Shown here: positions 2,799 to 48,190 of the stretch, piece by piece | How the letters are laid out: every line of letters starts with the position of its first letter | How positions within the stretch are numbered: position 1 is the stretch's first letter | From: Komagataeibacter sp. FNDCR2 | Lineage (GTDB): Bacteria > Pseudomonadota > Alphaproteobacteria > Acetobacterales > Acetobacteraceae | Direction of reading: 5' to 3' | Length of the DNA: 64,000 nucleotides | NCBI RefSeq assembly: GCF_021295395.1 | Contig: NZ_JAIWOU010000001.1 | Location: forward strand, 995,001-1,059,000 | Translations under genes and position numbers: made by a program | The notes under the pieces: model-generated | Seen by the model: only the letters and a program-made list of their open reading frames with translations | What the model was told of the DNA's origin: nothing | Database searches by the model: none

Positions 2799-3851
2799 TT
2801 ACTGGACCGTTTCTTCGGTGTTCAGGATCTGGTCGCAGGTGCGGATGGGGATGCCACGGAAGGCCGTGACCGGCTTGCCGTCCCATTCCAGCATCTGCAG
2901 CAGCACGTTGGTCTTGTTGAGCGCCTGCAGGTCCAGCGCCGTGCCGAGCGTTCGGTTGACGTAGATGGCCGGACGCCCCCATGACAGCGGCTGTCCGCCC
3001 GTCGCCTGCGTGGCCGTCTGCACGTTGGTGACGCCGCGCGGCATGGTGGGGATCTTGTGCACGGCGGCCACCAGCATCGAAATCAGGTTGGCCGCGCTGT
3101 CGCCGGTCAGGCTATCCACGTCGATGTTGGCGATGCGGACCACGTAACGCCAGTCACGCACGGTCAGGCCGCAATCCCATTTGTAGTGGGACTGGTATGC
3201 CTGATACGGGTTGCCGTTGGCGTCCAGAACCGGCGCATCGGTCGTCACGTCATTGCGCTGCAGTCCGGCAATGCGCCCCTTGGGGAAAATGCCAAACGCT
3301 GTGGTCGGGCCCCAGCAGGTCAGCCACATCGAGGTGTTGCTGGTTCCCCGTCCACCCGCGTCAATCACATTGACGGCGTTTGCGGCCTTTTCCGCGTCCA
3401 CCGTGCTGTAGCGCGGCGCAAGCCCGGTGAAGGCCGGCAGGTCGCTCTGCTCGGTGCCGTAGAACAGCGTGCCCGCCATCTGCTGGTTCATGCCCTCGAT
3501 GAAGGCCATGTCCTCAGACAGGCGGAAGGCGGCCACGTCACCCTCAAGGTTCGCCAGATCCTTATCGACCAGCGAGTAGGTTTCCAGCATACCGCAGCTA
3601 TCAGTGATCTGCGCGGTCGTGCTCTTGGCGCGCGGCACACCGTAGTTGAGCATACGCCATGTGGCGGCCGGCAGGCCTGTGCGCACGGTCGTCTTGTTGC
3701 CCGTGGCGAGGTTGCCCTCCTTCCACAGCATGTCATCAAGGATTTCGTTGGTCTGGGACAGCAGGTTCACGATATCCGCGATCTCGCCGTCCTCGCGCCG
3801 CGCGGCCCAGTCGGCCAGCGTCAGGCAGGTGGTGCTGGAAATGGTTGCCAC
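2799..3851 (-). CDS. Phage major capsid protein (Epsilon15 gp7-like)
   Basis: A 350-residue protein lacking a long N-terminal delta domain. It opens with '[21 protein letters not shown]', then a region rich in Asn/Thr/Trp, and ends with '[18 protein letters not shown]'. Length, the '[18 protein letters not shown]' pattern and position just after a Pro/Glu-rich scaffold gene fit the HK97-fold major capsid proteins of Epsilon15/BPP-1-like phages. It should form the icosahedral shell. The start at 3851 follows the scaffold stop by three bases. Confidence 0.8.
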
Positions 3852-6572: not shown

Positions 6573-6573
6573 G

Positions 6574-6780
6574 TCAGCCACCTAGCAATGTCTTGGGGGC
6601 GTTGGTGGCGGTCTGGCTCAGGCCGGAGGGCCCGGTCAGCATGGTTGACCCCATACCGCCCGCCATGCGCGCGGCCTGCGTGGTCGAGTTCTGCAGCCCT
6701 TGGACAGTATTGTTCACCGTCTGGCCCGCCATCGGTGCGGGCGTCGGGGTTACCACCTTCGGAGATTTGAAAATGCCCAT
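6574..6780 (-). CDS. Small phage protein upstream of portal, unknown function
   Basis: A 68-residue, Thr/Ala/Gly/Met-rich protein beginning MGIFKSPKVV and ending 'NAPKTLLGG'. Small Pro- and Ala-rich proteins of this type often sit just before podovirus portal genes; their function is not established. The stop lies one base from the portal ATG. The upstream spacer (6781-6819) contains copy B of a 19-bp repeat. Confidence 0.6.
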   Translation of the reverse strand: MGIFKSPKVVTPTPAPMAGQTVNNTVQGLQNSTTQAARMAGGMGSTMLTGPSGLSQTATNAPKTLLGG

Positions 6781-6797
6781 GACAGCCCTGTGCGGGC

Positions 6798-6816
6798 CGT
6801 TTGTTAGTACCGTGTG
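6798..6816. repeat. 19-bp direct repeat, copy B
   Basis: An exact match to 4605-4623, here in the 39-bp spacer between the terminase gene and the small pre-portal gene. On the minus strand it reads CACACGGTACTAACAAACG and lies about 18 bases upstream of the ATG at 6780, a position that could suit a regulatory site. Confidence 0.75.
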
Positions 6817-6819
6817 GTA

Positions 6820-7554
6820 TCAGGCGTATGGATCGTAGTCGCCCTGCACCGATGACCTGAAACCACCCTTCTCCAGATAGTTCGGCATGACCATCTCGAT
6901 GCTGGGCAGCATCACGACCAGGTAGCGCGTGGCATCCATGAGATGGTCGTTCTTCTTGACGATCTTACCATGGTCATCGCGCCGGTAGATGCGATATTCA
7001 GCCAGCCATGACTGCTGCGTGCTGAACACCTTGAGCCGACCGGACGACATTCGGTCCAGCACTTCCATGATCCCGGCTTCCACACCGTTCTTCGCCGGGA
7101 CCAATGTCAGTCCAAGGTCGATATAGTTCTGAAAAATCTGCTGACCATCCTTCTGGCCACGCCCGCGTGATGCCGGGTCTATGGTGCCATTCATCCACGC
7201 ACCACGCGCCTTGATGGCCTCGGCATGCACGGCAGGCTCTGCCTGCCCGCGGTAATGTTCGCTGTAGAGGTATAGGGTATCACTGTCCCGATCATGCGCA
7301 CCCCATATGGCTGCCGTCCGGTTCCAACCTACATCCAGTGCATAGGCGCGCGGCCAGAACGTGGGGATATCGAACGGAGCGCATACGATGTCGCTTTCCG
7401 GAACTGGATAGATGGCACCTGACCCGAGTTGTGGCACTCCCTTGGACCGCGCATCGCGCTGATACGGTGGCAGATCGCGCAGCAGGTCCGCCTTCTGTTC
7501 CGCACTCAGATGCGGCACGTCATCCCACGTGCAGGTGCCTACCCAACGGCTCAA
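6820..7554 (-). CDS. Terminase large subunit, C-terminal nuclease half (split by frameshift)
   Basis: A 244-residue frame beginning at a TTG at 7554, four bases before the end of the ATPase half. It carries the RNase H-like packaging nuclease: 'YALDVGWNRTAAIW' with the first metal-binding Asp near residue 73, and 'NDHLMDATRYLV' with a later Asp. Known Epsilon15-like terminases are single proteins of about 490 residues. The two halves together span 1,481 bases, one short of a whole number of codons. A single extra base near 7553-7555 would join them without a gap. No Shine-Dalgarno was seen for this half, so it is probably not made efficiently unless a -1 shift occurs. Confidence 0.8.
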   Translation of the reverse strand: MSRWVGTCTWDDVPHLSAEQKADLLRDLPPYQRDARSKGVPQLGSGAIYPVPESDIVCAPFDIPTFWPRAYALDVGWNRTAAIWGAHDRDSDTLYLYSEHYRGQAEPAVHAEAIKARGAWMNGTIDPASRGRGQKDGQQIFQNYIDLGLTLVPAKNGVEAGIMEVLDRMSSGRLKVFSTQQSWLAEYRIYRRDDHGKIVKKNDHLMDATRYLVVMLPSIEMVMPNYLEKGGFRSSVQGDYDPYA

Positions 7555-8300
7555 TCTTCACTCTCCGGCATCTTGCCATCCTCAAGGAACGACATGACCA
7601 CATCAGACATGCCTTCCAACGGTGTAAAGGTCATGATCACCATGCCATCCGTGGTCATGGTCCGGATCAGGGCCTCGGTATAGACATCCATCGGCGGTTC
7701 TTCATCGAGCCACACAAGATCCTGTTCGGTACCCTCAAAACTTCCGCGCCCCTGCTGGTACGCCTTCATGCCCAGCACGGACCATCCGCCTGACTGGTGC
7801 CGGACCTGGATGGTATCGGCAAGATCGGCAACGCCCTGTTTCCACGTCACGCTGCCTATGTCATCGCCCGGCACCAATCCGGTCCCACTGAACTGCTTGG
7901 ACTGCCCATTGCGCGACACACTTCCGAACAGCTTGGCCTGAATAATGTCGCGCGTCGTCTCGTTGGTCTTGCCCGCCGCCCACGCACGTATGGGGCGGTC
8001 AAACCGCCTGCCCTCCCACCAGTGCGGGTAACGTCCGGTCAGGTGTAGGGCAGTTTCATAGCCGCCCATCCCTTCCGTCTTGCCAACACGGTTGGCGGCC
8101 AGCATCAGCCGCTCGCGGTCCTTGAGCCCTGCACGGAAAAAGGCCATATGCTTCGGGTAGAGTTCCCGCCGCAATGGCCCATGATCCGGATAATAGGTAA
8201 ACAGCTTGCGGCGCGACTGGCGATACCGCTTCTCCTCAAGGATCGCCAGCATCTCACGCTTTTCGTCCGCGCTGAGCAGGTCAAGATTGATCGCCACCAC
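7551..8300 (-). CDS. Terminase large subunit, N-terminal ATPase half (split by frameshift)
   Basis: A 249-residue frame with the packaging ATPase: Walker A 'AANRVGKTEG' near residue 70 and Walker B 'DLVWLDEEPP' near residue 195, then 'MIMTFTPLEG', the coupling motif. It starts at GTG 8300 (or GTG 8297) inside the end of the small-subunit gene. The frame stops at 7551 just where homologues continue into the nuclease domain. With both halves separate, DNA packaging is probably lost, unless the base is a sequencing error or the site is recoded. Confidence 0.85.
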   Translation of the reverse strand: MVAINLDLLSADEKREMLAILEEKRYRQSRRKLFTYYPDHGPLRRELYPKHMAFFRAGLKDRERLMLAANRVGKTEGMGGYETALHLTGRYPHWWEGRRFDRPIRAWAAGKTNETTRDIIQAKLFGSVSRNGQSKQFSGTGLVPGDDIGSVTWKQGVADLADTIQVRHQSGGWSVLGMKAYQQGRGSFEGTEQDLVWLDEEPPMDVYTEALIRTMTTDGMVIMTFTPLEGMSDVVMSFLEDGKMPESED

Positions 8301-27593: not shown

Positions 27594-28442
27594 ATGAATA
27601 ACAAAAAAAACTATAAGGAATATACTTTCCCACCAATTATTATTATCAGCCTGCCGCGCGCTGTAGAACGCCGACGGACATTAACGCTACAACTTACCTG
27701 CCTTGGGCTGGATTTTGAATTCTGGGACGCGGTTGATGCCCTTGACCTGACCGACCGCGATTACGAGATCTATAATAGCCGTAGACGCCGGATTTTCATG
27801 GGCAAGGATCTCTATTCGGGGGAAATAGCCTGCCTGCTGTCGCATAAAAAAGCCATACAGCGGATCGCGACCGAGGACACGCCGTGTATCGTGCTGGAAG
27901 ACGACGTCCTTCTTTCCCCTGACTGGCCCCATGTCGTACGCGCCCTGATGGCCCGGCGCGACAAATGGGAATTCGTGCGTTTTTTTGGTGATGAGAAACA
28001 CGCCACCCGCCGGCAGCGCAAACTTGTCCCGCTGGGGCGCGATTACTGGCTGACCCGGATTTCCACAACACCCGGCGGGGCCCATGCCTATCTGATCAGC
28101 CCGTCTGGTGCGCGCAAAATCCTGCGTTGCCTGCATTACACGGCCACCCCGATCGACACATTGATGGGACAGCCTTGGAAAACCGGCCTTGGCGCCCTGA
28201 GCGTCTGGCCCGGAGTGGCGCGGGAGAACGACAAATTCCCCTCCTATATCGGTAATGCCCGTTTTGCCAGCACGCCCACCACCACGGGACTGGAACGCGC
28301 GCTGTATTTCGCGGCCAATCCTGGCCTGCGGCTGGTGGAAAACATACTCAAGCGCGGGTTTTATTACGGCCACGCATTACCCGACCTGTGGCGCAGACCC
28401 GAACCGGAGGCTGAAGCCTCCCACGCACCGGCACGCCCCTGA
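27594..28442 (+). CDS. Glycosyltransferase family 25 (LPS-type) protein
   Basis: A 282-residue protein. 'IISLPRAVERRRTLTLQLTCLGLDFEFWDAVD' is the typical opening of GT25 enzymes such as LPS galactosyltransferases. 'GEIACLLSHKKAIQRI' and 'CIVLEDDVLLSPDW' hold the sugar-nucleotide and metal-binding acidic motif. 'GAHAYLISPSGARKIL' is also conserved. It probably adds a hexose to lipopolysaccharide or another surface glycan. It is an isolated plus-strand gene between minus-strand operons, with an AT-rich start. Confidence 0.85.
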   Translation: MNNKKNYKEYTFPPIIIISLPRAVERRRTLTLQLTCLGLDFEFWDAVDALDLTDRDYEIYNSRRRRIFMGKDLYSGEIACLLSHKKAIQRIATEDTPCIVLEDDVLLSPDWPHVVRALMARRDKWEFVRFFGDEKHATRRQRKLVPLGRDYWLTRISTTPGGAHAYLISPSGARKILRCLHYTATPIDTLMGQPWKTGLGALSVWPGVARENDKFPSYIGNARFASTPTTTGLERALYFAANPGLRLVENILKRGFYYGHALPDLWRRPEPEAEASHAPARP

Positions 28443-34070: not shown

Positions 34071-34865
34071 TTATTCTTGTCCCACAGGGGACAGCAGCAC
34101 TTCCCCCGTTACGACACGCCGCAGGCCGGATGGCGTTTGCAGCAGCAGGATGCCATCGTCGGCCAGACCATAAAAATGACCACTGAACTGCTGGTTTCCC
34201 GCCCTTACGCCAATAGGTGTGCCAACCGGATGCGCGCGTTCCAGCCATGCGGTACGGATCGCGTCAAATCCACTGGTAGCGTAACGAAGCAGCCATGTAT
34301 CCAGTTCCTGCAGCAAAGCCCGGGCCATCACGGGCGCAGCCGGAACGTCAGGCCCATAATCCGCCAGGCAGGCCAGTTCACGGCCCGCGATCAGCGGGGC
34401 CTGCCGCAGGTTGGCGCCAATCCCGATCACCTGCCACGCCACATCCGCCGTGGTCCCGGTCTCGATCAGGATACCCGCCATCTTGCGGCCCGCCAGCAGC
34501 AGGTCATTAGGCCATTTGAGTTCCAGCATTTCATCCGTGGGCAGGAAACGGGCCACGGAGTCATACAGCGCCAGTCCGGCAATGAAGGGCCACAGCCCCA
34601 CGGGCACGCTCGTCCCCTGCCCTGTCAGCATGATGGACAGGGCGAGATTGCCCCCCGGGTCGGCCCATTCACGCCCCCGGCTGCCGCGTCCGGCTGTCTG
34701 TTCCAGTGCGAGGATCGCGACACCATTCGCGCCCTCCCCCGCTTCCAGCCGGGTCTTGCACAGGTCGGAAGTTGATCCCAGCCGGTCATGCACTTCCAGC
34801 CGCCATGCATCCCCGCATGCGCGGGGAAGCAGGATGGCGGAGGAAGCGGCCGGGATATCTGGCAT
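34071..34865 (-). CDS. birA: Biotin--[acetyl-CoA-carboxylase] ligase
   Basis: A 264-residue enzyme. 'TAGRGSRGREWADPGGNLALSIML' is the biotin/ATP-binding GRGxxGRxW loop near residue 58, and 'ELKWPNDLLLAGRKMAGILIE' the Lys-containing catalytic segment. There is no N-terminal DNA-binding domain, so it is a pure ligase and not a repressor. It attaches biotin to acetyl-CoA carboxylase. It starts three bases after nuoN and is probably the last gene of the nuo transcript. Confidence 0.93.
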   Translation of the reverse strand: MPDIPAASSAILLPRACGDAWRLEVHDRLGSTSDLCKTRLEAGEGANGVAILALEQTAGRGSRGREWADPGGNLALSIMLTGQGTSVPVGLWPFIAGLALYDSVARFLPTDEMLELKWPNDLLLAGRKMAGILIETGTTADVAWQVIGIGANLRQAPLIAGRELACLADYGPDVPAAPVMARALLQELDTWLLRYATSGFDAIRTAWLERAHPVGTPIGVRAGNQQFSGHFYGLADDGILLLQTPSGLRRVVTGEVLLSPVGQE

Positions 34866-34868
34866 ATG

Positions 34869-36293
34869 TTACCTGAACAGGGCGGCGGCCGCAGCCTGCG
34901 CCGCCGTGGAGACGGGGCCAAGCCCGACCATGAAGAACACGGTCACCAGCCCCATCCCGACCGATACGAACGAAACGGAAACAGGCGAACGGTCCAGCGC
35001 GGGAGCCGCCGCATCAAAGAACATGACCTTGACGATACGGATATAATAATACGCCCCGATCACGCTGCTGATGATACCGATCGCCGCCAGCCCGTAAAGC
35101 TGCGCATTGATCGCGGAATAGAACACCATGAGCTTGCCGAAGAAGCCCGCCAGCGGCGGCGCGCCCGCCATGCTGAACATGAACACCGCCATGGCCAGCG
35201 CCATGCCGGGGTCCGTACGCCCCAGCCCCGCCAGGTCGCTGATGCGCGAGACCTCGCGCCCCTTGCGGCGCATGGCGACAATACCGGCAAAGGCGCCGAC
35301 ATTCATGAACAGGTAGGTCACAAGATAGACCAGCGTGCCCCGCGTGCCCTCAGCCGTACCCGCGGCCATGCCGATCATGGCGTACCCCATATGCCCGATG
35401 GAGGAATAGGCCATGAGCCGCTTGATGTTCACCTGAGGAATGGCGGCCAGCGAACCGAACACCATGGACGCGGCGGACACCACCTCGATCAGCAGCTGCC
35501 ATTGCGGCGTCATGCTGCCAAACGGTCCGGCCATGACCCGCAGCAGCACGGCGAAGGCCGCGATCTTGGGCGCACCGGCCATGTAGGAGGTAACCGGTGT
35601 CGGCGCCCCCTGGTAGACATCGGGCGTCCACATATGGAACGGCACCATGGACAGCTTGAAGCACAGCCCCACCAGCACGAACACGATGCCAACCATCAGC
35701 CCGGCGGGCAGCACGGCGCTACCGCGCACGGCCTGCTGCAACCCGGCATATTCCAGCGTTCCGGCAAAGCCGTAAGCCAGCGAAATACCATAAAGCAGGA
35801 TGCCCGACGCCAGCGACCCAAGCACGAAATACTTGAGCCCCGCCTCCGCCGCCGTAACCCGGTCCCGTGCGAAGGCGCACAGGATGTAGATGGACAGCGA
35901 GGAAAGTTCCAGCCCGACAAACAGCGTCATGAGGTTGCCGGAGGAGGCCATGATCATGGTCCCCAGCGTGGAGAACAGGATCAGGATCGGGAATTCGAAC
36001 TTGTCGATCTCCATTTCCCGCGCATAGCCCACGCTCAGCACCAGTGACAGCGCCGCACCGCTCAGGCTCAGCACCTTCATGAAGCGGGCAAAACCGTCAT
36101 TGACAAAAACATGGCCGTAGCCGGTGCCATCAGGCGACATGACGACAAGGATGCCCGTGACGACAAAGGCCAGCAGCGTCATCATCGCACAGGAGAAGAA
36201 AGCCTGCCCGCGCTTTTGCATCACCCCGGCAAGCAGGATGGCCAGCCCGGACAGGGCCAGCACGATTTCGGGCAGAGCAAGTGTCCAGTTCAT
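34869..36293 (-). CDS. nuoN: NADH-quinone oxidoreductase subunit N
   Basis: A 474-residue membrane protein with about 14 helices. 'LELSSLSIYILCAFARDRVTAAEAGLKYFVLGSLASGILLYG' and 'FKLSMVPFHMWTPDVYQGAPTPVTSYMAGAPKIAAFAVLLR' are characteristic of NuoN (proton-channel Lys/Glu), and exclude NuoM. I chose the ATG at 36293, with AGGG nine bases upstream, over the ATG at 36311. It is a proton-pumping subunit of complex I. Directly upstream is nuoL, not nuoM. Confidence 0.95.
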   Translation of the reverse strand: MNWTLALPEIVLALSGLAILLAGVMQKRGQAFFSCAMMTLLAFVVTGILVVMSPDGTGYGHVFVNDGFARFMKVLSLSGAALSLVLSVGYAREMEIDKFEFPILILFSTLGTMIMASSGNLMTLFVGLELSSLSIYILCAFARDRVTAAEAGLKYFVLGSLASGILLYGISLAYGFAGTLEYAGLQQAVRGSAVLPAGLMVGIVFVLVGLCFKLSMVPFHMWTPDVYQGAPTPVTSYMAGAPKIAAFAVLLRVMAGPFGSMTPQWQLLIEVVSAASMVFGSLAAIPQVNIKRLMAYSSIGHMGYAMIGMAAGTAEGTRGTLVYLVTYLFMNVGAFAGIVAMRRKGREVSRISDLAGLGRTDPGMALAMAVFMFSMAGAPPLAGFFGKLMVFYSAINAQLYGLAAIGIISSVIGAYYYIRIVKVMFFDAAAPALDRSPVSVSFVSVGMGLVTVFFMVGLGPVSTAAQAAAAALFR

Positions 36294-36319
36294 TGGTAGT
36301 GGCCCTGACATCCTTGGGG

Positions 36320-38260
36320 TTAGCGGGAAAACAGCATGGTGGACAGCAGAACCACCAGGCCGATCAACATGGAAAAGGCATAAACCGCGATGGAGCCCGT
36401 CTGGATCCGCACGGCCTGCCCGGCCGTACCGGACGTAAGGCGGGCCAGCCCTTCGGGTATGCCCTCGACCACACCTTCATCCGCGCCTTTCCACAGCACA
36501 CGCGCCAGCGCGCGGTAGGGGCGCACGATCACGGCGTCATACAGCTCATCGAAATACCACTTGTTCAACAGGAACAGGTACACCGGGCGCAGGCTGCGGG
36601 CCATTGCCGCCGGGATACCGGGGCTTGCGATGTAGCATACATAAGCCACCCCGATGCCCAGAACGGCGGCAATGGTCGGCACCAGCGCGATAAGCCCCGG
36701 TGTCTGTTCAAGCCGGGCAATCACGTCGTGACCGGGAATGCTGGCGATCGCCCCATTCCAGAACGCGGCCTGATGCGCACCGATATACAGCGGCTCCAGC
36801 GCCACACCCGCCACAACCGCGCCAAAGGACAGCAGGACGACCGGCAGCATCATGGATGGCGGGCTTTCATGCGCGCCCTCATACAGATGTTCATCACGGG
36901 GTTTGCCATGGAAGACCAGGAAGATCAGCCGCCAGCTATACAGCGCGGTCAGGAAGGCGGTAAGGCACCCCATGACCCAGCCGTAATGCCCCATGGCGCT
37001 ATCGGACATCCACGCGGCTTCCAGGATCGCATCCTTCGACCAGTAACCCGCAAACGGGAAGATACCGGCCAGGGCAAGACTGCCGATCCACATGCCCGCA
37101 TAGGTCAGCGGGATCTTGCGCCACAGCCCGCCCATGCGGAACATGTTCTGCTCGTCATGCACGGCATGGATCACACAGCCCGCCCCCAGGAACAGCAGCG
37201 CCTTGAAAAAGGCATGCGTGGTCAGGTGGAACATGGAAGCCTGATAGGCCCCGACCCCGACCGCCACGAACATGTAGCCAAGCTGCGAACAGGTGGAATA
37301 GGCGATGCTGCGCTTGATGTCCGGCTGTACCAGCCCGACAGTGGCGGCGAAGAAGCTGGTGGTGCCACCGATCAGCACGATCAGGTCGCGCGTGACGGGC
37401 GCCAGTTCCACCAGCGGCGACATCCGCACCATAAGGAAGACACCGGCCGTGACCATCGTGGCCGCATGGATCAGGGCGGAAACCGGGGTAGGCCCTTCCA
37501 TCGCATCCGGCAGCCAGGTGTGCAGGAACAGCTGGGCCGACTTACCCATCGCGCCGATAAACAGCAGTGTCGCGATCACCTCCAGCAGCGGATGCGTACC
37601 GAACAGATGGAACGTATCATTCACATGCGCGGGGATGTCGGCAAAAATGTCATCGTAGGACACGCTGCCGAAACGGATGAAGATGAGCGAAATGCCGACA
37701 AGGAAAAACAGGTCCGCCACGCGGTTGACGACAAACGCCTTGATTGCCGCCTGCGCTGCGGAAGGACGGTCATACCAGTAGCCGATCAGCAGGTAACTGG
37801 CGAGACCAACCCCTTCCCACCCGAAAAAGAGCTGGAGCAGGTTGTCCGACGTCACCAGCATGAGCATCGCGAACGTGAACAGCGACAGGTAGGAGAAGAA
37901 CCGGTACACCGGCGCGCTCTCATGCGCCATGTAGCCAACGCTGTACACATGGACCAGCAGCGAGACCACGGTCACCATGGCCACCAGACTGACCGACAGC
38001 GCATCCATGCGCAGTTGCCAGTCCGCCGTAAAGCCCGCCGCGTGGATCCACTCGGCCACGGGCACGATGACCGTGTTCATGCCGCCACCCATCTCGAAGC
38101 CCAGCACACCGATCGCCGACAGCGCCGCACAGGTCATGAGCCCGATGGTGGTCAGTCGTGCCGCGCCGTCACCCATCAGGTGGCCAAAGCCACCGGCGAC
38201 GAGGAACCCGATAAGGGGCGCGAACACCGCCACCTCGAACAGGAGGGATGCCATCTGCAT
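36320..38260 (-). CDS. nuoL: NADH-quinone oxidoreductase subunit L
   Basis: A 646-residue membrane protein of about 16 helices. 'FFGWEGVGLASYLLIGYWYDRPSAAQAAIKAFVVNRVADL' and 'KSAQLFLHTWLPDAMEGPTPVSALIHAATMVTAGVFLM' are the NuoL signatures. The C-terminal 'YFDELYDAVIVRPYRALARVLWKG' is part of the lateral helix that clasps NuoM and NuoN. It is a proton-pumping subunit. Its stop is only nine bases before the ATG at 36311, with no nuoM between. Confidence 0.96.
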   Translation of the reverse strand: MQMASLLFEVAVFAPLIGFLVAGGFGHLMGDGAARLTTIGLMTCAALSAIGVLGFEMGGGMNTVIVPVAEWIHAAGFTADWQLRMDALSVSLVAMVTVVSLLVHVYSVGYMAHESAPVYRFFSYLSLFTFAMLMLVTSDNLLQLFFGWEGVGLASYLLIGYWYDRPSAAQAAIKAFVVNRVADLFFLVGISLIFIRFGSVSYDDIFADIPAHVNDTFHLFGTHPLLEVIATLLFIGAMGKSAQLFLHTWLPDAMEGPTPVSALIHAATMVTAGVFLMVRMSPLVELAPVTRDLIVLIGGTTSFFAATVGLVQPDIKRSIAYSTCSQLGYMFVAVGVGAYQASMFHLTTHAFFKALLFLGAGCVIHAVHDEQNMFRMGGLWRKIPLTYAGMWIGSLALAGIFPFAGYWSKDAILEAAWMSDSAMGHYGWVMGCLTAFLTALYSWRLIFLVFHGKPRDEHLYEGAHESPPSMMLPVVLLSFGAVVAGVALEPLYIGAHQAAFWNGAIASIPGHDVIARLEQTPGLIALVPTIAAVLGIGVAYVCYIASPGIPAAMARSLRPVYLFLLNKWYFDELYDAVIVRPYRALARVLWKGADEGVVEGIPEGLARLTSGTAGQAVRIQTGSIAVYAFSMLIGLVVLLSTMLFSR

Positions 38261-38266
38261 TTTCCC

Positions 38267-38590
38267 TTACCCCTTCATCATCGTAATGTCGTCGACTTCG
38301 ATCGAGCCGCGATTACGGAAATAGACCGTGACAATAGCCAGCCCGATGGCGGATTCCGCCGCCGCGATGGTCAGCACGAACAGGGTCATCACCTGCCCCG
38401 ACAGATCGCCGGTCGCCGCTGAAAACGCCACGAAATTGATATTGGCCGAAAGCAGGATCAGCTCGATCGACATCAGGATGATGATGACGTTCTTGCGGTT
38501 CAGGAAAATGCCGAACACCCCCAGAACCAGCAGGATCGCGCCCACACTCAGGTATGGCGCAAGGCCAATCCCCTCAATCGCGTTATCCAT
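38267..38590 (-). CDS. nuoK: NADH-quinone oxidoreductase subunit K
   Basis: A 107-residue protein with three membrane helices from the ATG at 38590. '[32 protein letters not shown]' holds the conserved membrane Glu, and '[27 protein letters not shown]' the second. It forms part of the membrane proton path of complex I. It overlaps nuoJ by eight bases. Confidence 0.95.
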
Positions 38591-39356
38591 TGTCCTGTCC
38601 TTTCGTCCCGTCCACCGGCGCCACAACCACCAGGGCGGTCTGTCTTTCTTCCGCCGCCTCGCACTGGCGCCAGGCCTCGGTCCCGTAGGTTCCGGGCACG
38701 GCCGCCACATCGTAGGAGTCACGTGGGCGCAGGAAGCCACCCTGGGCCGCGACCCCGGCACCCAGCGGCACCTGCAACATTTCAAGGGAATCCTGCGGCA
38801 CACGATCGTGCTGGCGGTCGATGTTCTGCCTGCGTCCCGTGGGCCGGTCGCGCAGGGTCAGCACGATCGCACCGATCATGGCCACCAGCAGGACAAGGGC
38901 ACATGCCTGGAACAGGAAAATATAGTGGGTATAGATCACGTCACCCAGGGCAGCGGTATTGGTCCGCGTGGGGGATGAGGGCACAAGATGCCTGATCTGC
39001 CCGATATTGCCCGCGACCCGCCAGTGAGCGAACGCCATGAGCAGTTCCACCAGCAGCACGCCACCAACCGCCGCCCCGATGGGGGCGTAACGCTGCATGC
39101 CCTCGCGCATCTGCGCGAAGCGGACATCCAGCATCATGACGACGAACAGGAAAAGAACCGCGACCGCGCCGACATAGACGATGATCAGCGTCATGGCCAG
39201 GAATTCGGCCCCCGCGATCAGGAACAGTCCCGCCGCATTGAAAAACGCCAGTATGAGGAACAGCACCGAATGCACCGGGTTACGGGCACACACCACCATG
39301 GTGGCGGACAGAACCAGAACCGCCGCGAAAACATAAAAGACGATTTGGGTCATCAT
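38583..39356 (-). CDS. nuoJ: NADH-quinone oxidoreductase subunit J, C-terminally extended
   Basis: A 257-residue protein from the ATG at 39356 (39353 also possible). Five membrane helices, with '[37 protein letters not shown]' as the family core, end near residue 175. Alphaproteobacterial NuoJ is usually near 200 residues. Here about 45 extra residues, soluble and rich in Ala, Glu and Val ('[20 protein letters not shown]'), follow the normal end. It forms the E-channel of complex I with NuoH and NuoK. Confidence 0.92.
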
Positions 39357-39434
39357 GGGTGAGCTTCCTGCCGCATGGATGTTTCCTCCTGCTGGCATGG
39401 CGGCCACGGCCTGCGCCGGGGCGGCCGTGCAATG

Positions 39435-39923
39435 TCAGCGGTATGGGGCATCAAGCTCGAGCCTGCGGGCGAGAACGCTTTCCCAGCGGTCGCCATTGGC
39501 CAGGAGCTTGTCCTTGTTGTACATAAGTTCTTCGCGGGTTTCGGTCGCGAATTCATAATTCGGCCCTTCGACAATCGCATCGACCGGGCAGGCTTCCTCG
39601 CACAGGCCGCAATAGATGCACTTGGTCATATCAATGTCGTAGCGCGTGGTGCGGCGTGAGCCGTCATCGCGCGGTTCGGCCTCGATGGTTATGGCTTCCG
39701 CCGGGCACGTCGCCTCGCACAGCTTGCACGCAATGCAGCGTTCTTCCCCGTTGGGGTAGCGCCGCAGCGCATGCTCCCCACGGAAGCGGGGCGAAAGCAC
39801 ACCCTTTTCATACGGGTAGTTGATCGTGACCTTTGGCTTGAACATCGCCCGAAATGTCACGCTCATGCCCGCCACCAGTTCGGACAGGAGCATGGAGCGG
39901 GCGGTTTTGCTTAACTTTCCCAT
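39435..39923 (-). CDS. nuoI: NADH-quinone oxidoreductase subunit I
   Basis: A 162-residue ferredoxin-like protein from the ATG at 39923, which overlaps the nuoH stop by one base (TAATG). Two 4Fe-4S motifs are clear: '[16 protein letters not shown]' and '[16 protein letters not shown]'. It passes electrons through clusters N6a and N6b toward NuoB. A longer frame to 39986 is unlikely. Confidence 0.96.
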
Positions 39924-40945
39924 TAACCTGCTCCTCCGGGCAGAAGGCCCGTAACCATCAGGAATCCCGCGCTCAGCACCATCCACGCCAGCGAGAAAGG
40001 CAGGAACACCTTCCAGCCCAGCCGCATGAGCTGGTCATAACGGAAGCGGGGGAATGTCGCGCGGACCCAGATGAACACAAACAGGCAGAACAGGATCTTG
40101 GCGATCAGCCACAGCGGCCCCGGTATCCACGTCAGGGGTGCGATCCCCAGCGGCGGCAGCCACCCCCCGAGGAACAGGATGCTGACCATGCCCGACATAA
40201 GGAACATGTTCGCGTATTCACCCAGAAAGAACAGGCCGAACGCAAGTGCCGAATATTCGACGAAAAAGCCCGCGACCAGTTCACTCTCACCTTCGGGCAG
40301 ATCGAACGGAGCACGGTTCGTCTCGGCCAGCGCGGAGATGAAAAACACGATGAACATGGGGAACATGGGCAGACAGAACCAGACGTGGCGCTGCGCCAGC
40401 ACAATGTCGTTCAGGTTCAGGCTTCCCACCGCCAGCAGGACCGACACGATCACCAGACCGATCGAGACCTCGTAGGACACCATCTGCGCGGCTGAACGCA
40501 GCCCGCCCAGAAAGGCGTATTTGGAATTGGACGCCCAGCCCGCGATCAGCATGCCGTAAACACCCAGCGACGAAATCGCCAGCAGGTACAGGATACCCAC
40601 ATTGATATTGGCGATCGCCAGCCCGTTACCCGTCGGGATGACCGCCCAGGCGATCATGGCCAGCGAGAAGGTCAGGAACGGTGCGAACAGGAACAGCATC
40701 CGGTTCGCGCCCGATGGGATGACCGTCTCCTTCGTCAGCATCTTGATCGCGTCGGCAAAGGCCTGCAGCACGCCGAACGGGCCGTTCACATTCGGCCCCT
40801 TGCGCAACTGCATGGCGGCCATCACCTTGCGTTCCGCCAGTGTAAGATACGCCACGCCCAGCAACAGGGGCGCGAGCACCGCCAGTGATTCAAGCACGAT
40901 CAGCAGGAGCTGGCCGATAAGGGTGTGAAAAAAGAAATAAGCCAT
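39923..40945 (-). CDS. nuoH: NADH-quinone oxidoreductase subunit H
   Basis: A 340-residue protein with about eight membrane helices. '[38 protein letters not shown]' and '[27 protein letters not shown]' are the quinone-site signatures. It forms the quinone chamber and links the peripheral arm to the membrane arm. It ends at the nuoI start. Confidence 0.96.
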
Positions 40946-40949
40946 CTAC

Positions 40950-43016
40950 CTACTCCGCAGCCTCAATGGCGGGGTGCACGTAAACCCCCGAACAGGTTTC
41001 CATGGTCGGGCTTGCACGGCACACGGCATGGGTCAGGTAATAATCGGCAATGACCGGCCGGAACGGCGCGTTCGATACCGGAACCTTGCCCGCCTGCGGG
41101 GAAGCGGTATCCGACGTGCCATGGCGGTTCCACTCCGCCTGCCCGAATACGGGATTGGCCTGCACCAGGCGCGCGCGCAGGGCCTCCAGCGTGTCATAAG
41201 GCAGCTTGCGGCCCGCGACTTCGGAAAAGGCCCGCAGGATACGCCAGTCTTCCCGGGCGTCTCCCGGGGGCATGACGGCGCGGAACGCCTGCTGCACCCG
41301 GCCCTCGGTATTGGTGTAAGTGCCGGGCTTTTCGGCATAAAGCGTGCCCGGCAGGATCACATCCGCCCGCGCCGCACCCGCATCGCCATGATGGCCCTGA
41401 TAGACCACAAAGGTCTTCGGCCCGATCTGGTCGGTCGGGAACTCATCCGCGCCCAGCAGCCACAGCACATCCACCCCGCCCTTGAGCATGCCCGCCACGT
41501 CGCGACCCTTCGGGCCGGGCAGGAAACCAAGGTCCAGCCCCGCCACGCGGCTGGCGGCCACATGCAGGACATTGAAACCGTGCCAGTCCGGGGTGATTGC
41601 GCCCACCTGCGCCGCCAGCTCCCAGCACGCGCGCGCTATGGCCTGTCCGTCGGGACGGGTCAGCGCGCCATGCCCCACGATGATCATCGGCTTTTTCGCC
41701 TTGGCCAGCACATCGGCGAACGGCAGCTTGCCAGCGGCCAGGGCCGCCAGCGTGTCCGGCCCGTTCCCCAGCACCTCGGCCGCATAGGTCGGGTCGGCAT
41801 TGGGCGCGCCGATCATGGCGATGGGAAAGCCGCCGCGCCCGGCCGCCAGATAACGCTTGCGGATGCGGGCATTGAGCACGGGCGCTTCCTGCCGGGGGAT
41901 CGACCCCACGATCAGCAGGGCATCCGCCTCCTCAATCCCGGTGATGCCGGTATTGAAGGTGTAGAAATCGCGGCGGGACGTATCGTATTTCGCCCCGTCC
42001 TGCCGGCAGTCGATGTTGCCGGACCCCAATGTCTCCATGAGATCCTTCAGCGCCATCATGCTCTCGGCATCGCACATGTCGCCCGCGATCGCACCGATAC
42101 GCTGGCCCGGCACATCCTTCAGCCGGGTTGCGATGGTGGCGAAGGCGTCCTGCCAGCTTGCGGGCTGGAGCTTGCCATCCACCCGCACCCATGGGCGGTC
42201 AAGGCGGCGACGGCGGAAACCGTCAACGACAAAGCGCCCCTTGTCGGCCAGCCATTCCTCATTCACCTCGTCATTGATGCGCGGCACGATACGCAGCACG
42301 CTTGCGCCGCGCGCATGCATGACGATGTTTGTGCCGACCGCATCGCATACGTCGATGGAGTCCGTACGCTTCAGTTCCCATGACCGCGCCGTGAACGCAT
42401 AAGGCTGCGAGGTCAGCGCCCCGACGGGACAGACATCGATCAGGTTGCCCGACAGTTCGGAGGTCAGCGCCTTTTCGACATAGTTGGTGATTTCAAGGTT
42501 TTCACCCCGCGAGACACCACCCAGCTCCGGCACGCCCGCGATCTCGGTCGAAAAACGGATGCAGCGCGTGCACTGGATGCAGCGCGTCATCACGGTCTTT
42601 ACCAGCGGACCAAGATACTTATCCGTGACCGCGCGTTTGTTCTCACGGTAGCGGGAATGGTCGGCGCCATACCCGAAGGCCTGGTCCTGCAGATCGCATT
42701 CACCACCCTGATCGCAGATCGGGCAATCGAGCGGATGGTTGATCAGCAGGAACTCCATCACCGCGCGGCGGGCGCGACGCACCACCTCGGTATCGGTGAA
42801 GATCTGCATGCCATCATTTACCGGGAACCCGCACGACGCGACCGGCTTGCGCCCGCCCGCGACCTCTACCAGGCACATCCGGCAGTTACCCGCCACCGAG
42901 AGGCGCTCATGATAGCAGAAACGCGGGATTTCCTTGCCTGCGGCCTCACATGCCTGCAGGGCGCTGGAACCTGGGGGAACCTCTACCGAGATACCGTCAA
43001 CGGTTACTTTCACCAC
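40950..43016 (-). CDS. nuoG: NADH-quinone oxidoreductase subunit G
   Basis: A 688-residue protein. The N-terminal 2Fe-2S domain has 'CYHERLSVAGNCRMCLVEV', followed by a His/Cys 4Fe-4S ligand set ('HPLDCPICDQGGECDLQD') and 'CIQCTRCIRF...GVSRG' with 'NLIDVCPVGALTS'. The rest is a molybdopterin-oxidoreductase-like fold without a cofactor. It holds clusters N1b, N4 and N5 of complex I. Length and frame are normal. Confidence 0.96.
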   Translation of the reverse strand: MVKVTVDGISVEVPPGSSALQACEAAGKEIPRFCYHERLSVAGNCRMCLVEVAGGRKPVASCGFPVNDGMQIFTDTEVVRRARRAVMEFLLINHPLDCPICDQGGECDLQDQAFGYGADHSRYRENKRAVTDKYLGPLVKTVMTRCIQCTRCIRFSTEIAGVPELGGVSRGENLEITNYVEKALTSELSGNLIDVCPVGALTSQPYAFTARSWELKRTDSIDVCDAVGTNIVMHARGASVLRIVPRINDEVNEEWLADKGRFVVDGFRRRRLDRPWVRVDGKLQPASWQDAFATIATRLKDVPGQRIGAIAGDMCDAESMMALKDLMETLGSGNIDCRQDGAKYDTSRRDFYTFNTGITGIEEADALLIVGSIPRQEAPVLNARIRKRYLAAGRGGFPIAMIGAPNADPTYAAEVLGNGPDTLAALAAGKLPFADVLAKAKKPMIIVGHGALTRPDGQAIARACWELAAQVGAITPDWHGFNVLHVAASRVAGLDLGFLPGPKGRDVAGMLKGGVDVLWLLGADEFPTDQIGPKTFVVYQGHHGDAGAARADVILPGTLYAEKPGTYTNTEGRVQQAFRAVMPPGDAREDWRILRAFSEVAGRKLPYDTLEALRARLVQANPVFGQAEWNRHGTSDTASPQAGKVPVSNAPFRPVIADYYLTHAVCRASPTMETCSGVYVHPAIEAAE

Positions 43017-43021
43017 TGTTC

Positions 43022-44347
43022 CTACTCCGCAGCTTCAACCATGCCAGCCGGCACCTGCACGCTCCGGCCACTGCCATGCGCCACCTTGTAGGCGCGGATG
43101 CGCTCTTCCATCACCGGGCGGAAACGACGGATCAGCCCCTGGATCGGCCAGGCCGCCGCATCACCCAGCGCGCAGATGGTGTGCCCCTCCACCTGACGGG
43201 TCACCTGCTCGAGCATGTCGATTTCCTCGATCTCGGCGCGGCCTTCGACCATGCGGTCCATAATCCGCATCATCCAGCCGGTACCTTCGCGGCACGGGGT
43301 GCACTGCCCGCAGCTTTCATGCTTGAAGAACTTGGAGAACCGCGCGATGGCCGCGATGATGTCCGTGGACTTGTCCATCACGATCATGCATCCGGTGCCA
43401 AGGCCGGAACCTTCGGCGCGCAGGCTGTCATAATCCATCAGCACCGTATCGCAGACCGAACGCGGCAACATGGGCACCGAACAGCCACCGGGGATGACCG
43501 CCAGCAGGTTATCCCACCCGCCGCGCACGCCACCGCCATGCTTTTCGATGATTTCCTTCATCGGAACGCCAAGTTCTTCTTCAAACACGCAGGGCGTGTT
43601 CACATGGCCCGATATGGCCATGAGCTTGCTGCCCGCATTGTTGGGGCGCCCCAGCCCGGCGAACCATGCCGCGCCGCGACGCAGGATGGTGGCGGCAACC
43701 GCGATGCTTTCCACATTGTTGACCGTAGTGGGACAACCATACAGGCCCATCGCCGCGGGAAAGGGCGGCTTCATGCGCGGCTGGCCCTTCTTGCCCTCAA
43801 GGCTTTCCAGCAGGGCCGTTTCCTCGCCGCAGATATACGCACCCGCGCCGCGATGGATGTAGAAATCGAAATCCCACCCCGAACCGCAGGCGTTCTTGCC
43901 GATCAGGCCCGCGGCATAGGCTTCGTCAATCGCGACCTGGAGATGTTCGGCCTCGTTATAGAACTCACCGCGGATATAGACATAGGCCGCATGCGCGCCC
44001 ATGGCGAAGGAAGCGATCAGCGCGCTTTCCACCAGCTTGTGCGGGTCATGGCGCAGGATTTCGCGGTCCTTGCAGGTACCCGGCTCCGACTCATCACCAT
44101 TGATGACGAGGTAATGCGGCCGACCATCGTTCTTTTTGGGCATGAACGACCATTTGACGCCGGTGGGAAAGCCTGCCCCGCCACGCCCACGCAACCCGGA
44201 AGCCTTCATCTCGTTAATGATGGCATCAGGCCCACGGGCCAGAATGGCGGCCGTATTGTCCCAGTCGCCGCGTGCGCGCGCACCCGCCAGTTTCCAGTCG
44301 TTCTGACCATACAGGTTGGTAAAGATGCGGTCCTTGTCCTGAAGCAT
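43022..44347 (-). CDS. nuoF: NADH-quinone oxidoreductase subunit F
   Basis: A 441-residue protein from the ATG at 44347. '[19 protein letters not shown]' near residue 60 binds NADH, '[27 protein letters not shown]' FMN, and '[16 protein letters not shown]' the N3 4Fe-4S cluster. It is the NADH entry point of complex I. It starts four bases after the nuoE stop. Confidence 0.96.
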
Positions 44348-44351
44348 GATC

Positions 44352-45011
44352 CTACCCCTGCCCCTGCGGCTTCTGCGCCGCGTCACCGACCAGCACCTTG
44401 CGCCCACCCGCCGGGGCCGACGTCATGCGTCCGGTGGTGGAGCCGGCCGGGGGCCGTTCACCGCGACGCAGCGCCTCGATCAGTTCGTGGGTGCGCGGAC
44501 CGTCGAGATCCTCGTAATAATCATTGTCAACCTGCAGGACCGGCGCATTGGCGCAGGCGCCAAGGCATTCGACCTCGGTCAGGGTGAACAGGCCGTCCTT
44601 GCTGGTTTCACCAAAATTGCTGATGCCCGTGGCGGCCTTGCAGGCGGCGGTGACATCATCGGAGCCACGCAGCCAGCATGACGTGGTGGTGCATACCTGC
44701 AGATGGTAGCGGCCAATCGGCTGGGTATTGAACATGAAATAGAAGGTCGCGACCTCATAAACACGGATCGGCGCCACCTCAAGCCGCGCCGCCACGACAT
44801 CCATGGCAATACGGGGCACCCACGCACTTCCCGTGGTACGCCCCATCTGGTTCTGCACCACATAGAGCAGCGGCAGCGTGCCGCTCGCCTTGCGCTCGGG
44901 CGGATACTTGGCAAGGATCGTAGCGATCTGCCGTTCGCTTTCCTCGTCAAATGCGAAATGGGTCGGTTCCACGCCCTGGGGCGCGTCGGACTGGACGGAC
45001 ATTTTGGTCAC
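44352..45011 (-). CDS. nuoE: NADH-quinone oxidoreductase subunit E
   Basis: A 219-residue thioredoxin-like protein. '[13 protein letters not shown]' and '[15 protein letters not shown]' supply the four Cys of the N1a 2Fe-2S cluster. The C-terminal tail of about 50 residues is Gly/Pro-rich. The start is GTG 45011, which overlaps the nuoD stop as GTGA, or ATG 45002. It pairs with NuoF. Confidence 0.95.
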
Positions 45012-46270
45012 CTGTCAATCTCGCCAAACACCAGATCAAGTGATCCGATAATGGCTACGGCATCAGCCAGCATGTGCCGACGCGACATTTCGTCGATTGC
45101 CTGGAGATGGGCAAAACCCGTGGGCCGGATCTTGCAGCGGTACGGCCGGTTACTGCCATCGGCCACCAGATACACGCCAAACTCCCCCTTGGGGGTTTCG
45201 ACCGTGGTGTAAGTGGCGCCCGGCGGCACGTGATAGCCTTCGGTAAAGAGCTTGAAGTGATGGATCAGCGCTTCCATGGAGCGTTTCATCTCACGGCGTG
45301 GCGGTGGCGAGATCTTGTGATCCTGCACCTTCACCGGGCCGGGGCGAATCTGCTCCAGGCACTGGTTGATGATGCGCACGCTCTCACGCAGTTCCGCCAC
45401 ACGGATCAGGTAACGGTCATAGCAGTCGCCCTGCCGCCCCACCGGTACGTTGAACTGCACCTTGTCGTAATTGTCATATGGCTGGCTGCGCCGCAGGTCC
45501 CATGGCACGCCCGATGCGCGCAGGCAGGGACCGCTGAAGCCCCAGGCCAGCGCCTGTTCGGTGGTGAACACGCCGATACCGACTGTGCGCTGTTTCCAGA
45601 TGCGATTGCCCGTCAGCAGCGATTCCAGATCGTCGATCCACTGGGGGAAAGTGCGCGCCCAGTCGGCAATACGCTCCTCCAGCCCGGCGGGCAGATCGCG
45701 TGCGACACCACCGGGACGGAAGTAGTTGGCATGAAAGCGCGCGCCGCATACGGCCTCGTAAAACTCCATCAGTTTTTCGCGCTCTTCATATCCCCACAGC
45801 GCCGGTGTCAGCGCACCGCAATCCAGCCCCAGCGCCGTCACGTTAAGGATATGGTTCAGGATGCGGGTGATCTCGGCGAACATGACCCGGATCCAGCGGG
45901 CGCGATCCGGGGCCTCGATACCCAGCAGCTTTTCAACCGCCAGCGCGAAGGCATGCTCCTCACACATCGGGGAGACATAATCGAGCCGGTCAAAATACGG
46001 CAGCGCCTTCGGGTACGTCTTGTACTCGATCAGCTTTTCCGTGCCGCGATGCAACAGGCCGACATGCGGAATGGCGCGGGCGACGACTTCGCCCTCCATT
46101 TCCAGCACCAGCCGGAGCACACCATGCGCGGATGGGTGCTGCGGGCCGAAATTGACCGCGTGGGAGTCGATCTCCACCACATGCCGCTTTACTTCGCCCT
46201 TGTCGTCCTCCGGCAGGAGTGAATCCGGAACAGCCACATCGCTGCGAAGGGTTACGTCGCTATCGCTCAT
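45008..46270 (-). CDS. nuoD: NADH-quinone oxidoreductase subunit D
   Basis: A 420-residue [NiFe]-hydrogenase-like subunit. '[22 protein letters not shown]' near the N-terminus and '[31 protein letters not shown]' line the quinone pocket. It is separate from nuoC, unlike the fused CD of enterobacteria. It forms the quinone-reduction site with NuoB. Confidence 0.96.
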
Positions 46271-46277
46271 CTGTCGC

Positions 46278-46952
46278 CTATCCCTGCCGTTTCAAATTCT
46301 GGCGGTCCGCATGCGCCTTTTCGTCGCCGGGCAGCGTCAGGATACCTTCCCAGGGCGATTCAAAATCGAAATTACGGAAATCCTGCACCAGATCGACCGG
46401 CTCATAGACAACCTGCCGCCGCTCCTCGTCATAACGCATTTCGACATACCCGGTCAGGGGGAAGTCCTTGCGCAGCGGGTACCCCTCGAACCCGTAATCC
46501 GTCAGGATGCGGCGCAGGTCGGGCTGGTCGGTGAACAGGATGCCGAACATGTCGTAGCATTCCCGCTCCCACCACGTGGCGGCGGGCCAGAGCCGGTGCA
46601 TGGACGGCACGGGGCTGGTCTCATCCGTTGTCACGATCACGCGGATGCGGTGGTTATGGGTGACGGACAGCAGGTTGTAGACCACGTCGAACCGTTCGGC
46701 ACGGTCGGGAAAGTCCACGCCGCATACATCCATGACCTGTTCACAGGCGTAACGCGGGTCGTCACGCAGCATGAGCATGAGCGCCGCAAGCCGGTCGCGC
46801 GTGGTCTGCACCACCAGTTCGCCCTTTTCAATACCGGCGGAAATGATGCCCGGAACCGTGGTGGACAGACGGAAGGCGATAACCCCCAGCCCACCGGACA
46901 CCACGCCCGGCATGGCCGCCGCCGCTACGGGAGCATTTTGTGGATCAGCCAC
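46278..46952 (-). CDS. nuoC: NADH-quinone oxidoreductase subunit C
   Basis: About 224 residues. '[40 protein letters not shown]' is the NuoC signature. I favour the GTG at 46952, which overlaps the nuoB stop by eight bases and has AGGGA about ten bases upstream; an ATG at 47003 would overlap nuoB by 59 bases. It is a structural subunit between NuoB and NuoD. Confidence 0.9.
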
Positions 46953-47523
46953 GGCGTATTGTCCCTGTCCTGCGAATTTTCTTCTGCAATTGCAGAATTC
47001 CATAAATCAGCGCCTCGGCCGTCGGGGGGCAGCCGGGCACGTACACATCAACCGGCACGATCCGGTCGCAGCCGCGCACCACGGAATAGGAATAATGATA
47101 ATACCCGCCGCCATTGGCGCAGGATCCCATGGAAATAACCCAGCGCGGTTCGGCCATCTGATCGTAAACCCGGCGCAGGGCGGGTGCCATCTTGTTGGTC
47201 AGCGTACCCGCCACGATCATGACATCCGACTGGCGGGGCGACCCGCGCGGGATGATCCCCATGCGGTCCAGATCGTAGCGCGGCATGTAGGCGTGAATCA
47301 TTTCCACCGCGCAGCACGCCAGCCCGAAGGACATGGGCCACAGGCTTCCGGTGCGCCCCCAGTTCACCAATTTATCAAGATTGGCGACCACAAAGCCCTT
47401 TTCGGTAATTTCCCCGGTAATGCCCTTGATTACCGCATCCTGTTCCGCCCCCGGCGGCAGCATTTCGCGGTTCCAGGCAATGCTGTCAGCGGGCCGGTCC
47501 GGCCCGGATATGTCATGGCCCAT
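46945..47523 (-). CDS. nuoB: NADH-quinone oxidoreductase subunit B
   Basis: A 192-residue protein from the ATG at 47523, preceded by GGGGAGG. '[21 protein letters not shown]', '[35 protein letters not shown]' supply the Cys ligands of the terminal N2 4Fe-4S cluster. It transfers electrons to quinone. Upstream in-frame starts at 47544 and 47577 lack good ribosome sites. Confidence 0.95.
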
Positions 47524-47546
47524 TGGTGCGCCTCCCCTTGTCATGT

Positions 47547-47912
47547 TCAATCCCAGTCCAGCGCGCCCTTGCTCCATTCATAGATGAAGCCAACCACCAG
47601 AACACCCAGAAAGCCCATCATGGACAGGAATCCGAACCACCCGATCCGTGACAGACTGAGCGCCCATGGAAAAAGGAATGCAACCTCGAGATCGAAAATG
47701 ATGAAAAGAATTGCAACCAGATAGAACCGCACGTCAAACTGATGACGTGCGTCGTCAAATGCCTCGAAACCACATTCATATGCGGACGTTTTCTCGGCAT
47801 AGGGCTTCTGATGGCCGAACAGCAGCGAACTGCCCAGCATCGCGCCTGCGATCACCACTGCGATGCACCCGAATATCAGCACGGGTAAATAATCAGCGAT
47901 AACGGAATGCAT
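47547..47912 (-). CDS. nuoA: NADH-quinone oxidoreductase subunit A
   Basis: A 121-residue, three-helix membrane protein from the ATG at 47912. '[45 protein letters not shown]' is the family signature with the conserved Cys loop. It is the first gene of the operon. Confidence 0.95.
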
Positions 47913-48190
47913 GTTCCGTGTTCCCAACCTGTTAATGCGCCACTCAGTGTCTTTATCGACTCAATGTCTGGCACGGGAGATGCTAGACCCTACACCCCGC
48001 AGGGAACAGTTGGTTAGGCATGTTATTTTAGGAACATTACTGTGAGGTAAGGTACAGGACCAAAACGGTCAATATTTGATAAACAAGAGTTTACCGCCAT
48101 TTTTTACTTCATTTTTTCGTGTATAGTGCACAAAAAAAAGCACCAGACCTGCGTATCAGGAATGGCGCGAAAGAAAATGAATTCGGAATA
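47913..48190. other. Leader and probable promoter region of the nuo operon
   Basis: 278 bases between tRNA-Asp and nuoA. The first 150 bases on the tRNA side are AT-rich, with several T and A runs (48003-48150), a suitable place for the nuo promoter. No clean -35/-10 pair stands out. No gene is visible. Confidence 0.5.

Follow-up and report, generated by a model that had tools for sequence, protein, structure and literature searches.

A nuoM gene displaced from the complex I operon in Komagataeibacter and other acetic acid bacteria

In the Rickettsiales, nuo clusters are split, and the genes of complex I lie at several loci. For acetic acid bacteria, Asaia and Gluconacetobacter included, two types of complex I have been described: one nuo operon is common among these bacteria, and the second was probably gained by transfer (PMC4596401). 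Here, we consider the nuoM gene of complex I in a Komagataeibacter genome (G000; 3.29 Mb in 5 contigs), starting from a stretch of 64,000 nucleotides (C1:995001-1059000; "the window" denotes this whole stretch) that contains the main nuo operon on its minus strand. This genome, too, has two unlike nuo operons, although the tree in the portion of PMC4596401 available to us is built from nuoHIJKLN, and nuoM is not among the genes named there. A similar pairing is known from Rhodobacter sphaeroides, in which a clade A (alphaproteobacterial) and a clade E (Escherichia coli-like) isozyme occur in one genome (PMC4859585, whose main text contains the word "nuoM" zero times); from our NuoM and NuoL+NuoN trees, we infer that the window genome resembles this A/E pair.

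The nearest precedent for the arrangement described below is Acetobacter pasteurianus SKU1108, for which a separate nuoM is listed (PMC5158111); in the accessible part of that source, the loci are only named, and the split, its spread, and its origin are not discussed. For Gluconacetobacter diazotrophicus, nuoA-nuoN are given as one set in the available parts of two papers (PMC2765452 and PMC9368920), one of which names nuoM; because nuoCD is fused in the set of PMC9368920, that set is probably the second, E. coli-like operon. A survey of complex I (PMC12361115) reports plasmid-borne Nuo subunits in K. saccharivorans and, in the part available, nothing on a displaced nuoM. As such, among openly accessible papers (several of them available only in part), the separate nuoM of A. 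pasteurianus is already in print, whereas our searches turned up no account of the split, of how far it extends, or of a single diverged clade of displaced NuoM proteins.

A solitary nuoM gene outside the main nuo operon

The main operon of the window lacks nuoM, and the organism very probably makes a complete proton-pumping complex I whose NuoM comes from a separate gene ~0.49 Mb away, between mutL and parE; the displaced NuoM would take its usual place between NuoL and NuoN. Within the operon, nuoL (36320..38260, minus strand; product P0002, 783.6 bits to TIGR01974 against a cut-off of 407.5) is followed directly by nuoN (34869..36311, minus strand; product P0003, 465.8 bits to TIGR01770 against a cut-off of 332.6). 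Neither the open frames of the window nor the sequence of the nuoL-nuoN junction (36294..36319, minus strand), which is the site of nuoM in other alphaproteobacteria, holds a nuoM between the two genes. A sequence-only reading of this DNA had arrived at the same gene order and had named the protein at 34869 NuoN and not NuoM; the profile scores and the junction sequence bear out both points, P0003 reaching only 143 bits against the NuoM profile TIGR01972 (cut-off, 263.8). The nuoL stop codon is a TAA at 36322-36320, and in-frame ATG codons for nuoN occur at 36311 and 36293; the second has the form ATG-AAC-TGG, as in many relatives, and appears the likelier start, in which case the intergenic gap is 26 bases.

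Genome-wide, the antiporter-domain profile PF00361 matched at seven places: the window's NuoL and NuoN, three sites in the second nuo operon, one weak match below the cut-off, and one solitary match at C1:1517 kb. The solitary match is an intact nuoM (C1:1516737-1518281) whose product scores 543.3 bits to TIGR01972 (cut-off, 263.8); the suggestion that nuoM had moved elsewhere is thus supported for this genome. The protein has 513 residues when read from an ATG and 515 from an upstream TTG (P0001). Its best match among solved structures is 8qby_M (E = 3.3e-128), its score to the equivalog profile NF004499 (583.2) falls slightly below the cut-off of 585, and its closest named relative is the NuoM of Komagataeibacter melaceti (97%, in a scan that may omit the organism's own or nearest records). 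The sequence-only reading had placed the DNA among the Acetobacteraceae, correctly. The gene begins 133 bases after mutL and is convergent with parE (both neighbors were named by eye). The weak match of the PF00361 search (19.3 bits; cut-off, 21.5) falls in a long open frame within C1:1139-1152 kb (L010).

A long hairpin followed by a U run lies 3′ of the nuoM stop codon (-39.7 kcal/mol; z = -6.7) and is terminator-like; it was seen by separate folding and missed by the terminator scan. Upstream, scanning for sigma-70 sites gave none on the strand of nuoM. When the stretches 5′ of nuoM from 12 Komagataeibacter are aligned, a conserved (T/C)ATAATGTGA box stands out; in the genome of the window it reads TAGAATGTGA and lies about 55-65 bases upstream of the ATG, and it could be a candidate -10 element.

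The second nuo operon (C1 ~1424-1439 kb; L008:4205-18709) is E. coli-like and has its own nuoM, as well as a 593-residue frame that, by eye, is a fused nuoCD. Its NuoM groups with that of E. coli in the first of our two NuoM trees, where the two stand apart.

Occurrence, constraint, and abundance in relatives

The displaced nuoM is present in all 19 genus genomes searched (89-100% identity), and NuoN is above the cut-off in the same 19 of 19; an in-frame TAG flagged in one match (G213) lies two codons before the aligned end and is an ordinary stop. The second, E. coli-like NuoM is found in 12 of these genomes, leaving the displaced NuoM as the sole NuoM in the other seven (G203, G205, G184, G207, G060, G211, and G212). 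Judged by score and genus, 22 of 60 genomes have a displaced-type NuoM, and 17 of these have no other NuoM that exceeds the cut-off.

Across 299 genomes of the family (limits of E <= 1e-100 for NuoM and E <= 1e-80 for NuoN), 242 have both proteins, 49 have neither, and eight are discordant (NuoM only in G004 and G091; NuoN only in G082, G098, G120, G133, G221, and G293). All eight are drafts of ~290 contigs or more, and none belongs to a genus with displaced nuoM. Outside the displaced genera, this co-occurrence proves little because nuoM and nuoN are normally linked there. In 40 genomes from 11 genera, by contrast, nuoM and nuoN are unlinked, with 188 kb or more between them or each on its own contig; all 40 nonetheless have both, so linkage does not account for their co-occurrence there. 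In the genomes examined, the displaced NuoM is present where the rest of the main complex is present and absent where it is absent.

The split is old: within our sample, these 11 genera, which are acetic acid bacteria and close relatives, have it in common. Among the matches listed, 50 of 77 named loci (L071-L119 and L127) have mutL and/or parE, without nuoL or nuoN in the stretch, and derive from Komagataeibacter, Novacetimonas, Gluconacetobacter, Acetobacter, Commensalibacter, Lichenicoccus, and their kin; 26 of the remaining 27 have nuoL and/or nuoN nearby (two of them carry nuoL on the opposite strand), and one named locus, L141, matches the NuoM query alone. The order nuoL-nuoM-nuoN is found in 30 of 30 other loci of the family (L011-L040, those with the highest scores among 187 matching genomes) and in 28 of 28 loci from other alphaproteobacterial families (again those with the highest scores, among 92 matching genomes). 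This position is usual for nuoM but does not define the protein.

The mutL-nuoM-parE neighborhood looks derived, since outside the clade mutL and parE are far apart in all four genomes that have both on one contig (G100, G157, G062, and G045); five drafts with the two genes on different contigs (G043, G080, G306, G099, and G002) are uninformative. Nor are they neighbors in three genomes without NuoM (G054, G032, and G066), lying on different contigs in two and far apart on one contig in G066. Five genomes from five genera (G022, G025, G085, G046, and G008) have, by score, only E. coli-like NuoM; in these, mutL and parE are neighbors, 0.9-2.6 kb apart, with other open frames in the gap but without any NuoM match at E <= 1. 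The gap in G008 contains a 43-residue NuoN match at chance level (E = 0.06). Their shared mutL-parE neighborhood suggests that the five belong to the displaced-nuoM clade, and we count them as genomes, not as independent losses. G022 and G025 each have two NuoM genes with E. coli-like scores and are without a main-type complex I.

The displaced NuoM is intact and under purifying selection. In three genome pairs, the ratio of nonsynonymous to synonymous substitution rates was 0.066-0.113 for nuoM, 0.078-0.114 for nuoL, and 0.066-0.079 for nuoN. Six channel residues (E144, K234, K265, H322, H348, and E407 in E. coli numbering) are conserved in all 32 displaced rows. E144, K234, K265, and H322 are named among the residues of NuoM in the available part of PMC9271201, according to which the distal position is glutamate (E407) in NuoM where NuoL and NuoN have lysine.

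Proteomic data, seen in part, exist for A. pasteurianus (PMC10742644). There, NuoM has locus tag 1610, and the operon has tags 3342-3354, with nuoI at 3350 and nuoN at 3354, which leaves three tags for nuoJ, nuoK, and nuoL; we infer from this that tag 1610 is the displaced gene. The reported ratios for NuoM (0.62, 0.33, 2.16, and 1.78) run in the same direction as those for NuoN (0.93, 0.31, 2.22, and 2.12) and NuoB (0.39, 0.24, 2.72, and 2.05). Several features of the table temper its bearing on a complete complex: the identity of tag 1610 is indirect, the first NuoN ratio (0.93) was not called changed, and SdhC, SucA, and AcnA shift as NuoM does, such that complex I is not alone in this co-variation. 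Because these other enzymes move alike, the table shows that NuoM is made and regulated with energy metabolism, and not that it is a member of the complex. Of the sequence-only reading's provision for a nuoM elsewhere with matching expression, then, the gene itself is found, and the match in expression comes only from this table in a related genus.

Three other accounts of the missing gene were weighed and rejected. The absence of nuoM from the operon itself is what had suggested a reduced complex I, with NuoL and NuoN as the sole antiporter-like subunits; this is now highly improbable, given an intact and conserved NuoM that is under purifying selection elsewhere in the genome and co-occurs with the rest of the complex, and given the NuoM protein reported for A. 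pasteurianus under a tag unlinked to those of the operon (PMC10742644, in the part available). The genome does carry a second operon with its own nuoM, which might supply the main complex and leave the displaced gene to another role. We regard that as similarly improbable: the seven genus genomes without a second NuoM keep both main-type NuoN and displaced nuoM, the displaced protein is so often the only NuoM over the cut-off (the 17 of 22 above), and the five genomes with only E. coli-like NuoM have no displaced gene. For an assembly collapse at the junction, no point was found in favor, and its probability is negligible, with nuoM intact elsewhere and nuoL and nuoN adjacent in all 20 other genomes fetched. 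That comparison with relatives, which the sequence-only reading had proposed, placed the aligned nuoN start -4 to 70 bases after the nuoL stop (the nuoL of L179 is cut by a contig end).

Origin of the displaced NuoM

We compared three trees. The first NuoM tree comprised 31 displaced, 30 operon, and 3 extra rows, hand-picked from 129 extracted NuoM proteins, together with the two NuoM proteins of the window genome, that of E. coli, and one E. coli-like row (L130, L131, and L142 were excluded). The second, better-rooted NuoM tree (75 rows) used a careful search and 23 of the 28 alphaproteobacterial loci as outgroup. The NuoL+NuoN tree is a quick version that places the window within the family, with other alphaproteobacteria as outgroup and no E. 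coli-like NuoL or NuoN rows. In the second NuoM tree, the displaced rows group alone at 92/86, and the clade that they form with an extra NuoM of genus g100 (below) has the operon NuoM of g44/g80 as its sister (85/92); the NuoL+NuoN tree recovers a clade of the same 11 genera (100) with the same sister (98). The placement of the displaced clade beside all operon copies of the family in the first tree, in which E. coli-like and Acidobacterial rows stood outside, was discarded as a long-branch effect, as the clade nests within the family given the 23 outgroups.

One genus, g100 (2.7 Mb), has a normal nuoL-nuoM-nuoN operon plus an extra NuoM. In both NuoM trees, the extra NuoM and the displaced NuoM proteins form a clade at 100/100, apart from the operon NuoM of g100, and an approximately unbiased test rejected a grouping of the extra copy with that operon copy (p = 1.3e-103, where the tool warns of long-branch bias). 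The stem of the combined clade has a length of 1.04 in the second tree (1.16 without the extras), compared with 0.24 for the corresponding stem in the NuoL+NuoN tree; as estimated from these trees, NuoM changed more than four times as much as NuoL and NuoN on the clade's stem branch. The extra nuoM of g100 (L148, 5128-6660, plus strand; also L150 and L151) lies ~25 kb from parE in G100 and G157, and its closeness to this neighbor of the displaced gene is suggestive only.

Sites in the protein offer a further comparison. Counting as derived any position with the same letter in at least 80% of 21 displaced rows, we found 20 derived positions among 219 conserved columns, at 14 of which g100 has the same letter. 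Eight of the 20 fall within E. coli residues 229-264, before the central lysine (34 of the 219 conserved columns; hypergeometric p = 0.005), although this region was chosen after looking, and 22 of 2,000 permutations reach eight in some 36-residue window. One of the changes, H248 to Y, is found in all four groups (displaced, g100, g4, and g12), whereas E. coli and all 49 reference rows have histidine at this position. The genera g4 and g12 have stray NuoM proteins of their own: G102 and G159 (g4) and G011 (g12) have two NuoM matches each. The three strays form their own clade (100/100) in the second tree, and the central lysine K265, kept in the displaced clade and in g100, is changed to N in 3 of 3. 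One nuoM from each of these genomes (L189 at ~6066-7646 on the minus strand, L190, and L191) stands without nuoL or nuoN in the fetched 13 kb.

The history toward which these comparisons tilt us, slightly, is one in which nuoM was duplicated, the stray copy diverged fast, and the operon copy was then lost, so that a diverged paralogue would now do the job; such a sequence of events would explain the long NuoM stem, and g100 would have retained both the operon and the displaced-type copy. The alternative, a plain relocation of nuoM in one move without a duplicate stage, followed by fast evolution, would mean that g100 received its extra NuoM by a later transfer or that the tree joins this protein falsely to the clade. 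It must account for the 100/100 grouping of the g100 extra with the displaced rows, for the 14 of 20 derived states found in g100, and, suggestively at most, for the proximity of the g100 gene to parE. Several results pull the other way and count against the paralogue step. Omitting the displaced rows, the g100 extra joins the stray NuoM proteins of g4 and g12, which is long-branch behavior, and it has 14 derived states in common with g12, the same number as with the displaced clade, and 11 with g4; the displaced clade itself shares 10 with g12 and 3 with g4. In the first tree, the displaced rows alone were grouped at only 61/82. As g44/g80, and not g100, is sister to the displaced clade in the NuoL+NuoN tree as well as in the second NuoM tree, a shared duplication requires losses, or else a gain of the g100 copy by transfer. 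Long branches also count against the paralogue step. The leave-out tree and the counts of shared states weakened the case for a common origin of the g100 extra, lowering our confidence in the duplication history a little, to its present level just better than even, and raising that in plain relocation to one that still falls somewhat short of even.

A bolder version of the duplication history is doubtful: that the diverged paralogue ousted the operon NuoM and that a burst of change before the central lysine, including H248 to Y, altered the pump. Such an alteration might lie, for example, in proton input or coupling, perhaps fitting acid life.

Surroundings of the operon and significance

The remainder of the main operon extends upstream of nuoL on the minus strand. 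nuoK (38267..38590) is an open frame, likewise read by eye, with an ATG at 38590, and a nuoK query was found beside nuoL in relatives; nuoJ to nuoA (38583..47927) are open frames named by eye, among them nuoD (45008-46270), nuoC (46278-47003), nuoB (46945-47577), and nuoA (47547-47927). Directly downstream of nuoN, also on the minus strand, is an open frame named by eye as a birA-like gene (34071..34865); all 20 fetched loci have its relative on the far side of nuoN. Farther away, an open frame on the plus strand (27594-28442) resembles, by eye, a family 25 glycosyltransferase.

The displacement of nuoM is real and consistent, and its most likely outcome is an ordinary one, a complete complex I; the case is of moderate evolutionary interest. 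It corrects a likely misreading of vinegar bacteria as having a two-pump complex I, and illustrates that reading an operon only can miss a subunit. If replacement by a paralogue is true, these bacteria would represent a natural case in which a diverged copy replaced the central pump subunit of complex I, and the 20 changes at otherwise conserved sites, along with one genus that has both copies, would form a test set for the coupling residues of NuoM.

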